From positions 1 through 32,602 of the IMG/VR virus record IMGVR_UViG_3300045971_000042: a stretch of DNA of 32,602 nt; one strand, given 5' to 3'. Each line of letters starts with the position of its first letter. Within the stretch, counting starts at the first letter, position 1. A model generated the notes under the pieces. It was not told where the DNA came from. It searched no databases and saw only the letters and a list, made by a program, of their open reading frames with translations. Made by a program: the position numbers and the translations under genes. Positions 1,591 through 30,277 of the stretch are shown here, piece after piece. Source of the DNA: a virus.

Positions 1591-4500
1591 AGTATGAGAA
1601 CACGTATACAGTGCCGTTGCCACCAGCACCACCTACACCACCAACGGCTAAACCAGATGGATTTTGACTGCCATTACCGCCAGCACCGCCACCACCACCG
1701 CCTTGTCCACCAGGACCACCAGCACCACCAGCATAAGCAGTTCCGGAAGTATTACCACCGCCACCACCGCCACCACCCCAGCCACCATTAAGTGACGTTC
1801 CAGCCGCGCCTGCCCCGCCCGTATTACCAACAGCATTAGTAACTACTGCTCCACCTGTACCACCACTTCCAGCAGAGTAGTTTATAGGTAAGCTTCTACC
1901 TCCAGATGAACCAGCATTACTAGCATTACCACCGCCACCACCGCCACCACCCCCAAACATTGATCCTCCACCACTAAACCCGCCTCCTCCTCCACCAGCA
2001 CCACCAAACTCACCACAGGACATTTGGGCTGAGTATGTAGATCCGCTTCCTACTGCACCACAATAACCAATAGCGCCGTAACCAGATGTTGGTGCACCAG
2101 ATTTTGGCCATCCACCTATACCACCTAGTCCTTGAGAAACACCTGCACCGCCTGCACCCGCGCTTCCACCACCACCACCACCACCAGAATCAACGTTGTT
2201 TAACCCAGAAGCACCACCACCACCACCACACGCATAAAGATAAGTGCCAAACGTTGAGGTTCCACCAGCATTACCAACAGCACCAGAAGCACCACCAGTA
2301 CCACCAGCACCAGCAGTAACAGATACGGTACTACCCAAATCAGCAGCATTAAATGTTGCTGTATTAAACGAGCCACCACCACCACCACCAGATCTACCTG
2401 TATAGTTTTGTGCTGCTGACATAGGTTGTCCACCAGCACCACCACCGCCAGGACCCCACATCTTGACAATAACGGTTGTAACACCAGATGGTTTGATCCA
2501 GTTACTCGTACCTGATGTAAAGACTTGAACATTACCTGTGCTACCACCACCGCCTGATGATCCATTAGCAGCGGAAGTAATACGTCCATCTGCACCTACT
2601 GTTATGTTTGCGTTAGTGTATGAACCAGAAGTAACGGTTGTATTTGCTAATACGGTCGTAATGTTGCCAGTACCACTACCTGTAATCGCACCAGTAAGCG
2701 TAATGGTTTGATCACCTGTATTAGAGCCAGATAATGTGGTGATACCAAGTTTAGATTTAACTGTAGTCGTCGTTTCATCACCCGTATTAGAGCCAGATAA
2801 GTTAGCAGCGGTTATGTTACCAGATAGAACAACCGTGTTAGCCAAGTCAATAGTTAGTCCTGCTGCTGGATGTGATACGACGATGTTATTGCTTGTACCA
2901 GAAGTTACTGAATCAATAAACGAATACCACGATGCGGTTGTGTCTGCTACTAAACCAACATTTTGCCCAACTGGGATAGATACTGCTACGTTTTGTGTGT
3001 TACCATCTATTGCTGCTGATGTAGCGGGATAGACTTTAAGTGGGTTAGTGCCATTATTGATGATGTAGTGAACTTCACCCGCCGTTGCTGGCACAGGCAA
3101 TCTTACACCTTGACCACTACCTACAGAGGTGACATTAGTGACTGTCTTTGACAATAGTTGTGCGGTTGATTGGGTTGTACCTGCTGCGCTAATAGTCTCT
3201 ACTGATGTAGATAACTTACCGCTTACATACAAGTCAGTACCTACCCATACAGATTTAGCGATTGACGCACCGCCTGATGACATAAATGAGCCAGTATTAC
3301 CCAAGAAGTTAGTAGCATCAAGAGTAGAGGTTGACTGAATCCAGTTTGAACTTGACAGGTAAGTAAAGTAACCTGTTGACTTCGTAGTAGCACCTATAGT
3401 TGCGCCATTGATCGTACCACCTGTTATAGCAGCATTAGCATTTAGTGTATAAGTAGATAGATCTTGATCGCCTGTATTGCTACCAGATAAGGTCGTAATA
3501 CCAAGTTTCGTCTTGATCGTAGCAGTTGTTTCATCACCTGTATTAGTGCCAGAAGCAGAACCAGTTCCGCTTGCGTATGTACCTGCTACTTGAGCACCTA
3601 CTTCGCTGTAAGTGTAGGTTGGCTTAGTGGCTGCTTTAGCCCACGCATACACGTCTGACGCAGGTAATGTAGTTGGTATTGTTTGATCACCTGTATTGCT
3701 ACCAGATAAGGTCGTAATACCAAGTTTCGTCTTGATTGTGGATGTTGTTTCATCACCTGTATTAGTACCGCTTGCTGATCCAGTACCTGATGCGTATGTG
3801 CCTGCTACCTGCGCACCTACCTCGCTGTATGTATAAGTTGGTTTAGTTGCGGCTTTTGCCCACGCATAAACATCACTTGCTGGTAGTGTCGTTGGTATTG
3901 TCTGATCGCCTGTATTAGTTCCAGACAGATTTGAACCAGATACGATACCTGTTGTCTCTATGTTACCTGCGAAAGTGACATTAGAGATAGAGCCACCAGT
4001 AATAGCGACATTGGTTTGATCAAATGTTACGGTAGATGAGATTACGTCGCCTGTAATGTCAATGCCAGTGCCCGCTGTGTATGTAGTGCCACCTCCACCT
4101 CCTGCTCCTAAAGTAACACCATTAGCGATAACATTGCCTGTAACCGTTAGTTCTCCAAAGATTTTTGCTGCTGTGGTGCTGCTATTACCAATCGTAGTTG
4201 TATTACTTGCACCAAGCACAGCCGCATCACCAATCGCTATTGCGTTAGTTACGGTTGAGTCAGATGCGGTAATGTAAGCACCAAGTAGCGTATTATTAGT
4301 ACCTGTCTTTAGAGAAGTTGCTTCTGTAACTGCTCCGCAGAACGCACCAACCAACGTATTACGATTACCTGGTCCTGTGTTCTGCACACCTACAACCATT
4401 ACTGTGCCAGTCCCACTACCTGCACCTGTAGCGGTAAAGATGGTATCTACTGTGTTAGATGCAGAGCCAATAGCGGTAAAAGATGTATTACCAGGAGTTA

Positions 4501-25890: not shown

Positions 25891-25931
25891 GCCAAAAGAA
25901 AACACTCGTAAACCAGTGGGATTTACGAGTG
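25891..25931 (-). terminator. rho-independent terminator
   Basis: The minus-strand RNA has a perfect 10-bp stem, CACTCGTAAA/TTTACGAGTG (25903-25912 and 25922-25931), a 9-base loop, and TTTTCTTTT directly after. It separates the small early genes from the terminase operon. Confidence 0.75.
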
Positions 25932-26103
25932 CTCCGGAGTTAAGTAGTTCAAATGGCTGTAATCCCTACTCAGTTCGAAGCCCGGGCTGGTTACCGGGCT
26001 TGCCGAACTTATACTTAGGACATTCTATGAAATTAGCATTGCAGTACGGAATCCCATGTCACCGGTTAAACTTACTGCTCAGCTAACTTTATTTATTATT
26101 CTT
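25932..26103. other. dyad-rich noncoding region upstream of terminase
   Basis: No gene is supported. The 8-bp palindrome CTCCGGAG (25932-25939) adjoins the terminator. A long imperfect hairpin (25972-26009) pairs AGTTCG + AAGCCCGG with CCGGGCTT + CGAACT, 14 bp with a 2-base bulge and an 8-base loop. AATAAATA occurs on the minus strand at 26090-26097. The place, just before the terminase genes, is where cos or pac sites often lie; this is inference. No tRNA T-loop is formed. Confidence 0.45.
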
Positions 26104-26888: not shown

Positions 26889-27036
26889 TCTTTGGTTTCT
26901 TTAACTTTATTGGTGTAGCACGAGCAATAGTCCACCCCTTGAAATTTGCTGGCAAATAAACGTCGATCTTGGGCAAAAACAAGTAGAAACGCTCATAGTT
27001 TCGCCATCTTTTATAGTAAATCAGCTTGGTTTCCAT
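26881..27036 (-). CDS. small basic protein, 51 residues
   Basis: Starts METKLIYYKRWRNYERFYLF and ends TPIKLKKPKNG, rich in Tyr, Arg and Lys. It is the first gene of the cluster after the origin-like region; its stop overlaps the next ATG by 8 bases (ATGGATAA). No good ribosome site precedes the ATG. A CTTAAATA motif lies 36 bases upstream. No family recognised; coding is supported by the overlap pattern and open frame. Confidence 0.45.
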   Translation of the reverse strand: METKLIYYKRWRNYERFYLFLPKIDVYLPANFKGWTIARATPIKLKKPKNG

Positions 27037-27155
27037 ACGTTATTTTTGTGGTAGTAGTCTTTACGGCTAAAGTATTTAAGTCGTTAAATGAATGCTGTTT
27101 AGAAAAAGTGTGCTGAAAAGTGTGTATCGTGCTGTGTTTTAAGCTGTTTTTCAAC

Positions 27156-27224
27156 TGTCGTAGATTTTGTATTTTAAAAACTTTTTAAAAAATTAAATTT
27201 TTTCGTAAACACGAATCTACGACA
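27156..27224. repeat. 11-bp inverted repeat framing AT-rich DNA
   Basis: TGTCGTAGATT (27156-27166) and its perfect complement AATCTACGACA (27214-27224) bracket 47 bases with runs of A and T (about 85% A+T), a candidate DNA unwinding element. Confidence 0.7.
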
Positions 27225-27238
27225 AGTTTGTGAAACTG

Positions 27239-27350
27239 CTGCACACCTGCACACTTCAGTGTTTTCTGGCATTCTACACGCCTAGAATGCCAGAAAAAGT
27301 GTGTTTGGGCCCTGCACACTTGCTGCACACTTTTGCTTCTCTGCACACTT
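27239..27350. repeat. five CTGCACACTT iterons
   Basis: Four exact copies of CTGCACACTT start at 27247, 27312, 27323 and 27341; a fifth (CTGCACACC) is at 27239-27247. They lie in two groups on either side of the 15-bp palindrome. Inverted, less exact copies occur at 27106-27115 (AAGTGTGCTG), 27118 and 27297. Confidence 0.8.
27262..27297. repeat. perfect 15-bp inverted repeat
   Basis: TTTTCTGGCATTCTA (27262-27276) and TAGAATGCCAGAAAA (27283-27297) with a 6-base loop CACGCC. On neither strand does a T-run follow the stem, so a terminator is unlikely; a cruciform or protein site at the origin fits better. Confidence 0.75.
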
Positions 27351-29246
27351 TTACACGATTTTGTAACCAAACTCAGTTACTAGTGGCTCATCATCTTGCA
27401 CAAGTACATTACGAGTCTTGTCACCACCAACCATAATAGTATCAACATAATCACTTACATTACACTTATAGCCTCTAACATCAACCCCATCTTTATACCA
27501 AACTGTAGTTTGTGTTGAACGAGACATACCATCTGCTTTAACCCGTTGTCGATGTTTTGTTATAAAACCTTCTGATTCAAAACGTGGTGCCATTTCCGCA
27601 ACTAAGTTAGCTGGAGTTTTGACAAATTGTGATGAGCTTGAATTACCAGAAGATGAAGCTAACACCTTGTAAATCTCATAAACCTCAAGCGCACTTATCT
27701 TATCAACTTTACGATCTAAAATGTATTGTACAGTAGCAGTGATTGGATTTGGTTTGTTGTTCAGCATCTCAACCCAATCCGTATCACGCAATGGTTCAAG
27801 TGAGAATTGTGCTCCTGCTTTCGGTTTGTGCTTATGGTGTAAGTAATCCAAAAACTGCTGGATAGATTCTTTATTACCCCATAAGTGTTCTGTGCGGCGT
27901 AAAAACGTATCACCCTTATCAAACTCTGTTGGATACTTAGATAAGTCTGTACCAAAGTCGTTAACAAGGGTATCTTCAACCACATTTGGTGTTATTGAGT
28001 TGAATACTTTATACACCACTTCAGCAAAAGTATCACCGCGGTTAAGATTGATTGGGCTAACACGCATCATCTGATTACCATCCTCAACTGGTAGTGGGAA
28101 TGTAACTTGATTACTACCCATTGCCATTGCGATGCAGTTATCGATTGAATACTCTAACCCATACTTTTCTTTAACATAGTCATTAGTGCTGCCAGTTAAA
28201 CTTTTGATTTTAGTCCAATCTTCTTTTGACGGAATCTCATCAATGTAAATGAATACTTTGCCTAACTTAAATCCGTTAAAGTTACTGTCAACTGTATCCC
28301 ATACTGCGGTAAAGCATTGATTTTTACCAAGTATAGTTGGGATGGTAAGATCAAAAAGTACGTTCTTACCTTTTTTACCCTTGCCAAACATAATTGGCAT
28401 GCTTAAAAAGTTATTACCAATGTCTGCATGAACTACTGCATAGATCCATCTCTCTAACCAATCAGTAACTACTGGACGGGATGACTTAAACTTACCATCT
28501 TTCCCAATGATTGCACACCCACCACTTAGCGCAATCATTAATGCTGCCATAACAGGAGGGCAAGGTGGTTGCTCGTCAAATTCATTTGGGTGCATTGAGT
28601 CAGATAAGTCAATAATGTTGTAAGTATTTGGATCTGGTGTGTCTAATGTGTTAACCATCCCTGTATACTGCCTCTTTGGGAATACTTTATTGATGAATGA
28701 GTTAGTCTCTGGATCTTTAATAACGATCTCATCACCCCTCACCATCTTCTTAAAGTATCGCAAGCAAGTTTTAGACTCAAATTCCATCCAGTTACTTGGG
28801 AGTGATCCAACTGGATACTTTTCAAGTTTAACACTTATAACCGGAGAGTTAGACTTTTTGCGAATGCTTGTATGCACTACTTTTCTAAAGTAACAAGGTT
28901 GTGAGCCTTGTAAAAAGCACATCTGTGTGTCGTCATAAATCTTTAGTGCTTGTACAAACTGTTGCCATTTAAAGTCATCAGTCTCTATCTCTTTATCTTC
29001 TTGCTTTGCAAGTGATTCTTCTTGCTTAACTAACAAGCGGCCTTCTTTGAGTTGTAATTCTAAATCTTTAATTGTAGCTAACTGACCACTAATAACTGCC
29101 ATCTGATCATCACATCGCTGCTTTTTATCTGGTACTACCTCGATTGATAACTTCTCTAATGCTGCCAACTTCTTACGCTCTTGTGAAAGCATAATCTTAG
29201 CAGTCGCAATTGTCACCTCTAAATCTTTAATCTCTTCGTCATTCAT
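27351..29246 (-). CDS. superfamily 3-type replicative helicase (DUF5906-like)
   Basis: 631 residues. Residues 1-90 are a charged coiled coil. An ATPase core covers about 230-400: Walker A-like MFGKGKKGKN (G288-N295), with Asn where Ser/Thr is usual, Walker B VFIYIDEI (D336/E337), and motif C near AMAMGSNQ (S378/N379). The set fits DUF5906/D5-like phage and plasmid helicases. A C-terminal winged-helix-type region (about 530-600) may contact DNA. It overlaps the primase by 4 bases (ATGA), so both form a replication unit that unwinds and primes DNA. The origin-like region follows directly downstream. Helicase identity is fairly sure; activity depends on the unusual Walker A. Confidence 0.8.
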   Translation of the reverse strand: MNDEEIKDLEVTIATAKIMLSQERKKLAALEKLSIEVVPDKKQRCDDQMAVISGQLATIKDLELQLKEGRLLVKQEESLAKQEDKEIETDDFKWQQFVQALKIYDDTQMCFLQGSQPCYFRKVVHTSIRKKSNSPVISVKLEKYPVGSLPSNWMEFESKTCLRYFKKMVRGDEIVIKDPETNSFINKVFPKRQYTGMVNTLDTPDPNTYNIIDLSDSMHPNEFDEQPPCPPVMAALMIALSGGCAIIGKDGKFKSSRPVVTDWLERWIYAVVHADIGNNFLSMPIMFGKGKKGKNVLFDLTIPTILGKNQCFTAVWDTVDSNFNGFKLGKVFIYIDEIPSKEDWTKIKSLTGSTNDYVKEKYGLEYSIDNCIAMAMGSNQVTFPLPVEDGNQMMRVSPINLNRGDTFAEVVYKVFNSITPNVVEDTLVNDFGTDLSKYPTEFDKGDTFLRRTEHLWGNKESIQQFLDYLHHKHKPKAGAQFSLEPLRDTDWVEMLNNKPNPITATVQYILDRKVDKISALEVYEIYKVLASSSGNSSSSQFVKTPANLVAEMAPRFESEGFITKHRQRVKADGMSRSTQTTVWYKDGVDVRGYKCNVSDYVDTIMVGGDKTRNVLVQDDEPLVTEFGYKIV

Positions 29247-30277
29247 ACTACATCCTTTGTTTTGTATTTGTTTAAAATCATTTTCGCTATCTCTGATGCT
29301 GTTGCAGTTCGTGATACAGGTTTAACTTTACCCACCGCAGTGCCACCATACTGCATAATAAACTCATCTCTGCGTTCATTTGTAATGCGAGTAAATGCAG
29401 TTTCCCAAGCATTCACTTGGTTTGTTGGGTCTTGCATACACGAATCTAGTGCACAGCAAATGGCACAAATTTGTTGAAACTCAACAAATGAAGCATCAAC
29501 TGATTTACAGATTTGGGCAAGTATAAGTGCGTCGCCGCCCCCACGCCTAATACCACGACATGATAGTAAGTGTTGCATTACCTTCTCTTTACGGCGTTGT
29601 AAAAAGTCACCCGACATTGTATCAATAGTAATACCTGGTGACTGTAGTTGGGCACGTGGTACTGGTTGTACAACTGAGTTAAAAGAGTCAACCTCAATAA
29701 ACTTACCCCTATTCCACCTGCTGTATGCAAGTGTTTCATCTGGACCAGAGTGAAAGTAAATTGCTTGTGACACACTATAGCTAGCACGGTCAGCACCAGG
29801 AAACATTGCTTCAATAGCTGCTTTCTTTTCTGTAAACTCTAGCCGGGTCATCATCCTATCAAACGGAAACACCATCCTAAACTTGTCCTCTTTCTTAGAG
29901 TGAGAGAAGGTAGTGTAAATGACATACTCATACTCTTTATACAGTTCCTCTGCCTCAACGATTGTTTTGTTGTGATCAAAGTCAATAACTAACCCGTGTA
30001 AGCCAATCGCATTCTCTTTACAACGGCGTATAGTGCCTGGGTAAGGTATCCATACGGATAAGTCTTTAATGCGGGTGCGTGGATCGATTTTATTACGACC
30101 ACCTGGCTCTGCGATTAGTACATCTTTGAACTGCCAAAGGTTAAAGAGACTGTTCTTCTCTTTTCCATCTGACTTAAAAAAAGTCAGCAAAGTAGTTGCT
30201 AACTCTCCCCAAGTCAAATCAAGTTGATGTTCTGGTAATGCTGGTGCGTGTACACTTTCAAAAATAGTAACATGCAT
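29243..30277 (-). CDS. archaeo-eukaryotic-type primase
   Basis: 344 residues. The core has the AEP metal motif GLVIDFDH (D99, D101), the sxH-like TTFSHS (H126) followed by a basic strand DKFRMVFPFD, and a third strand AIYFHSGP. After about 210 comes a helical C-terminal domain (RRKEKVMQHLLSCRGIRRGG, then ICKSVDASFVEFQQICAICC) of PriCT type. It would make primers for the phage helicase. The start overlaps the upstream stop (TAATG) and is preceded by GGGAGG, an excellent ribosome site. Confidence 0.8.
   Translation of the reverse strand: MHVTIFESVHAPALPEHQLDLTWGELATTLLTFFKSDGKEKNSLFNLWQFKDVLIAEPGGRNKIDPRTRIKDLSVWIPYPGTIRRCKENAIGLHGLVIDFDHNKTIVEAEELYKEYEYVIYTTFSHSKKEDKFRMVFPFDRMMTRLEFTEKKAAIEAMFPGADRASYSVSQAIYFHSGPDETLAYSRWNRGKFIEVDSFNSVVQPVPRAQLQSPGITIDTMSGDFLQRRKEKVMQHLLSCRGIRRGGGDALILAQICKSVDASFVEFQQICAICCALDSCMQDPTNQVNAWETAFTRITNERRDEFIMQYGGTAVGKVKPVSRTATASEIAKMILNKYKTKDVV

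Follow-up and report, generated by a model that had tools for sequence, protein, structure and literature searches.

The helicase-primase locus and its intergenic array

The window, i.e. the whole stretch of DNA analysed here, is a virus record of 32,602 bases whose completeness is uncertain. It encodes a 631 aa DUF5906 helicase (27351-29246, minus strand), which matches Pfam PF19263 (E = 1e-10) and carries a Walker A-like GKGKKGKN motif and the motif IDE. PHROG primase models also match this protein. Its closest relative is the helicase of locus L119 (37% identity over 564 aa). The gene located 5' of the helicase gene overlaps the start of the latter and encodes an AEP-type primase-like protein of 344 aa (29243-30277, minus strand) with PHROG primase/helicase matches. 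This protein shares 38-45% identity with its positional counterparts in L101, L104 and L105, which are likewise encoded 5' of the helicase. On the 3' side of the helicase gene, 314 bases (27037-27350) between its stop codon (27351) and the ATG of a 51 aa ORF (start codon at 27036, minus strand) are noncoding. Further downstream follow genes for a small terminase (a putative assignment that relies on its location in front of TerL), the large terminase, portal, scaffold and major head protein.

The noncoding region contains four exact copies of an iteron, CTGCACACTT (at 27247, 27312, 27323 and 27341), and one near copy, CTGCACACCT (at 27239). In addition, three copies overlooked in the preliminary description are present on the opposite strand (AAAAGTGTG at 27104, 27116 and 27295). 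Outside the array, AAGTGTGCA does not occur in the rest of the record. Read with the orientation of the helicase gene, the array starts directly after the stop codon with three exact iterons on the minus strand: iteron 1 (AAGTGTGCAG, 27341-27350), iteron 2 (27323-27332) and iteron 3 (27312-27321). They are followed by an inverted iteron-like copy (AAAAGTGTGT, 27295-27304, plus strand) that overlaps the base of a hairpin. This hairpin (27262-27297) has perfect 15-bp arms (27262-27276 and 27283-27297) and a 6-nt loop, and separates the first from the second iteron group. The latter comprises iteron 4 (exact, 27247-27256) and iteron 5 (one mismatch, AGGTGTGCAG, 27239-27248), both on the minus strand. 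Next comes a 47-bp stretch with 85% AT (27167-27213), a proposed unwinding element, framed by a perfectly pairing 11-bp inverted repeat (right arm AATCTACGACA, 27214-27224; left arm TGTCGTAGATT, 27156-27166). It holds most of the most AT-rich 40-mer found among all 32,602 bases (27164-27203). Beyond the AT-rich part, a third, inverted iteron group on the plus strand consists of AAAAGTGTGT (27116-27125) and, as last element of the array, AAAAGTGTGC (27104-27113). Consequently, five copies are located on one side of the 40-mer and two inverted copies on the other. The size of the noncoding region, the five iterons with four exact ones, the palindrome and the framed AT-rich stretch had all been listed in the preliminary description and are confirmed here.

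These elements were compared with 1000 dinucleotide-preserving shuffles of 27036-27350. A 10-mer count of four was reached by none of them (shuffle maximum two), and the same holds true for an 8-mer count of five and for the 15-bp palindrome (0/1000 each). The 11-bp inverted repeat with a spacer of 30-70 bp appeared in 4 of 400 shuffles and is modest when taken alone. Folded as single-stranded DNA, the hairpin yields a z-score of -7.7. A role of this hairpin as terminator was rejected: a T-run after the stem is absent on both strands, and the sole scan hit has a weak tail. Rfam hits across the AT-rich part were far under threshold and taken as chance. The GC skew, suggested earlier as a check for an origin, does not switch at the array; nearly all genes of the window lie on one strand.

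The L003 junction and the downstream region

The close relative L003 is 92-94% identical to the window over the small downstream ORFs, among them a near-identical counterpart (50 aa) of the 51 aa ORF. The similarity extends up to window position 27081 and ends between 27081 and 27082, with 94% identity on the left and the unshared array and helicase on the right; the outermost iteron is found at 27104. Past this junction, L003 carries an unrelated gene and no iterons, and both array and helicase are missing. The preliminary description had considered the lack of iterons in close relatives as an argument against an origin, and on its face L003 represents such a case. However, L003 has lost the helicase as well; the joint absence points to a cassette and does not count against an origin. 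The simplest reading of the junction would be an exchange of one cassette, in either direction.

The protein encoded in L003 in the place of the helicase (319-1146, 275 aa) has no PHROG or PADLOC match and might be part of another replication module. L003 also contains a DNA methyltransferase gene (2325-3587), located between the small ORFs and the small-terminase region; this gene is likewise present in L004 and absent from the window. Another observation concerns window positions 25898-26038 (minus strand), located 5' of the putative small terminase gene. Here, L003 and L004 share with the window an identical noncoding block of about 105 nt, while the flanks diverge. This block ends in a terminator-like hairpin (z = -3.9 for the window fold) whose stem sequence differs between the window and the relatives with the pairing kept. 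It has no Rfam or tRNA match, and its start was found in the viral contigs only in L003 and L004. It might be a phage noncoding RNA or a packaging element.

Two functions linked to the downstream genes were considered for the array itself. First, the repeats could be operators at which a regulator controls the packaging and structural genes, since the array sits between replication genes and co-directional late-type genes. This is very unlikely: the position of the array is tied to the helicase gene end and not to any gene downstream, the swap in L003 removes the array while the downstream genes are kept, and a scan covering sigma-70-like promoters did not find any. Second, the proximity to the putative small terminase gene (about 1.5 kb) and to the large one (1.8 kb) could indicate a DNA packaging site (pac or cos). 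Here, the odds are poorer again, as L003 retains the downstream terminase genes without the array, and as arrays in other loci follow the helicase even where TerL is only 26-28% identical or where no TerL match is found nearby.

Arrays behind related helicases

Relatives of the locus had to be collected with profiles, because the window helicase or primase as single query did not yield any relatives in viral contigs. Helicase queries against 50,697 phage records and the helicase profile against genome contigs did not give a match either. The terminase finds many relatives; of 34 records searched, only one, L055, encodes a DUF5906 helicase. In L055, an array with another core, AAGTGATG, is located 3' of the helicase gene. 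The L055 helicase and, subsequently, a profile of five helicases were used to fetch further loci.

In 20 of 22 loci, an 8-mer is repeated in the 3' flank of the helicase gene more often than in shuffles (p ≤ 0.0067); for L113, a 29% relative counted among these 20, the repeat appears to be due to chance. The remaining two are L102 (p = 0.013) and L101, which is weak by exact 8-mers (p = 0.067). None of more than 80 control stretches from the gene body, the upstream region or further downstream fell below p = 0.04. In all 21 records compared, the helicase 3' flank contained the highest 8-mer multiplicity of the locus, although with a tie in the window and in L102. Near-duplicates inflate these counts: the first set corresponds to 8 clusters at 65% identity, so that there are fewer than 22 independent cases.

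The position of the arrays is conserved. In all 17 loci compared, the first iteron lies 0-35 nt 3' of the helicase stop codon, and in 15 of these 17 the iterons flanking the AT-richest gap are oppositely oriented. By contrast, the iteron sequence is not conserved: at least ten different cores were found, and each lineage has its own. The iterons also differ between L091 and L094, whose helicases are about 70% identical. A layout in which iteron groups straddle the palindrome had been called uncommon. Within the family it is not; what recurs is an arrangement of opposed iteron groups around the AT-rich part, and the palindrome is a side element. In L091, too, a hairpin (10-bp arms) is located between iteron groups.

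The AT-rich core (CAACTTTTTAAT...AAAAAGAAGTTG) is almost identical in the flanks of L102, L103 and L107, and L107 has TGTTACGC iterons instead of GTGTAGGA. In these three loci, the iterons appear to have changed while the AT-rich core stayed. A search for the iteron-pair pattern across all viral contigs returned 12 stretches, several of them coding or composed of other tandem repeats, with about two expected by chance (an estimate), and was discarded as evidence.

A held-out set was fetched with a primase profile, i.e. blind to helicase and array, and comprised six loci with a DUF5906-like helicase next to the primase. An array is present in five of them (L119, L123, L124, L126, L134), with p = 0 in four cases (300 shuffles) and p = 0.017 in the fifth. 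The L119 array (AGTGACAG) starts three bases past the helicase stop codon, and in L123 an AT-rich gap of 113 bp separates six forward from six reverse copies. L134, a Leptothrix discophora locus and possibly a prophage, is the sole bacterial-genome relative of the primase; it carries AGTTACTA / AGTGACTA repeats 3' of the helicase-like gene. The 3' flank of the L121 helicase lacks an array (p = 0.91), though its 64%-identical relative L124 has one. The case of L121 fits the view that the array is a footprint unrelated to replication, be it a mobile repeat or chance. This view is hardly credible in the light of the shuffles, the control stretches, the conserved position of a changing sequence, and the held-out set.

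The same origin plan was found in an annotated phage record, Streptococcus phage Javan633, which has a fused primase. No array was detected in three cultured phages whose primases are distant relatives (L115, L116 and L117); hence, not every primase-bearing phage follows this plan. At another distant primase relative, L132, at least eight GTTCCGCA repeats (3551-3900) are located 5' and not 3' of the gene.

The array as a probable replication origin

The region 27082-27350 is very probably the replication origin of an uncultured tailed phage and of the SaPI/PICI rep-ori type. This assignment is based on the anatomy of the array, the statistics against chance, the constant position combined with iteron turnover, the linkage seen in L003 and the fold of a relative. 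It agrees with the preliminary description, which had proposed an origin: the array is found 3' of the helicase across the family with an own core in each lineage, and L003, without the helicase, has no array either. The gene directly preceding the array encodes the helicase, which is proposed to be a Rep-like initiator.

SaPI Rep and SCCmec Cch2 bind iterons directly 3' of their own genes with their C-terminal domain (PMC7581432). In PICIs, an AT-rich region with one iteron set on either side is always located 3' of rep (PMC6092414), and one PICI study includes DUF5906 proteins encoded by genes that colocalise with mapped origins (PMC10111431). The locus described here resembles SaPI/PICI rep-ori in the order primase, helicase, origin, with the origin immediately 3' of the helicase gene, in the two iteron sets around an AT-rich region, and in the predicted fold of a relative of the helicase (see below). 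In contrast to SaPIs and PICIs, which are satellites using a helper phage, the window represents a full-size tailed phage that itself encodes terminase, portal, scaffold and major head protein. Furthermore, it has an extra iteron group and the 15-bp hairpin, and iteron sequences vary by lineage. Similarly, SCCmec Cch2 is a D5-type helicase that uses its C-terminal domain to bind AAGTG iterons just 3' of its own gene (PMC7581432). That the window iteron AAGTGTGCAG also starts with AAGTG is probably a coincidence. The SCCmec system differs in that it is a chromosomal cassette with only three 5-nt iterons and a PolA-family CCPol-MP pair instead of an AEP primase.

The preliminary description had chosen satellite P4 as analogue. 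P4 alpha is one fused primase-helicase with two iteron sites (ori/crr). P4 is likewise an iteron-recognised primase-helicase replicon, but primase and helicase are separate genes here and only one iteron site was found in a record that may be incomplete, so that SaPI/PICI rep-ori fits better. In pRN1 and BIP-1, the origin is also located 3' of the primase-helicase gene (PMC4234260); it consists of a large stem-loop without iterons, whereas iterons dominate here, accompanied by the 15-bp hairpin. In iteron plasmids of the RepA/RepE type, the initiator loads the host helicase; here, in a scan of selected window proteins, the product of the adjacent gene was itself identified as a helicase.

The AlphaFold model of the window helicase (mean pLDDT 46) was too poor for a fold search. 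Its residues 501-584 (pLDDT about 46-74) show the order helix, strand, helix, helix, strand, strand. The same order is found at residues 426-509 of the L091 helicase, mostly at pLDDT 76-92 (mean of the whole model 72), and a winged-helix topology is predicted for the helicase C-terminus. The L091 model resembles the helicase region of NrS-1 (Foldseek E = 1.2e-8; Z = 15) and, with Z = 12.5 and an rmsd of 6.0 over 305 residues, the SaPI5 primase-helicase; the large rmsd values result from the AAA+ core of the model, which is partly of low confidence. It also aligns to poxvirus D5/E5 and the ASFV primase-polymerase. Covariation between the helicase C-terminus and the iterons was considered, too. 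Sliding identity was striking, but the best contrast reached only p = 0.15 (rotation), other contrasts were not significant, and the claim was dropped. An MK-like test was not significant, either.

From the facts compiled here and published work on SaPI Rep, SCCmec Cch2 (PMC7581432) and PICIs (PMC6092414), a mechanism can be proposed in which binding, melting, priming and the direction of replication are all deduced. The iterons would be recognised by the helicase C-terminus, whose winged-helix domain most likely contacts the iteron groups of opposite orientation. Two helicase rings would assemble facing the AT-rich part and then melt it. The separately encoded AEP-type primase (29243-30277) would prime the opened strands, and replication would depart from the origin bidirectionally.

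Alternatively, the region might be an origin whose repeats are mainly read by the primase as priming start sites instead of serving as helicase binding sites, comparable to the NrS-1 primase-polymerase. NrS-1 provides the best fold and profile match of the helicase, and its helicase region is the closest solved relative, with the difference that primase and helicase are fused there and separate here. NrSPol starts at TTTGGTTA and GTG sites (PMC8718748), GTG or CAC is present in the iterons of the window and several relatives, and CCPol-MP prefers priming inside the Cch2 iterons (PMC7581432). Nevertheless, this alternative is unlikely: the iterons of several lineages (TGTTGACG, TGTTACGC, AAGTAGCA) lack GTG and CAC, and inverted groups around an AT-rich gap fit protein loading better than scattered starts. 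As a post hoc observation, over half of the iteron cores include GTG or CAC, at which primases of the pRN1 and NrS-1 types start.

Implications for phage replication

The origin plan as such is known from PICIs and SaPIs. Here, it is probably present in full-size tailed phages, a replicon class for which a search of the open literature did not reveal a published description of a PICI-type origin plan. In Streptococcus thermophilus phages, an origin is located near the primase. For uncultured phage genomes, a simple rule for origin prediction emerges: look directly 3' of the DUF5906 helicase gene. It held in five of the six held-out loci. Moreover, the loci provide a natural series of helicase-iteron pairs with fixed position and varying sequence, with which a change of the DNA specificity of an initiator helicase can be tested.

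More speculatively, helicase and own iteron array might constitute one cassette that is common among tailed phages of water and exchanged as a whole, in line with the junction in L003. Competition of related phages, satellites and decoy origins for the same initiator would then account for a fast change of the iterons. We regard this as a tentative idea that is rather improbable in its entirety. If it were true, it would contradict the published claim that the PICI origin plan is unique among the known bacterial replicons. In that case, satellites would share, or have borrowed, a plan that is general in phages.
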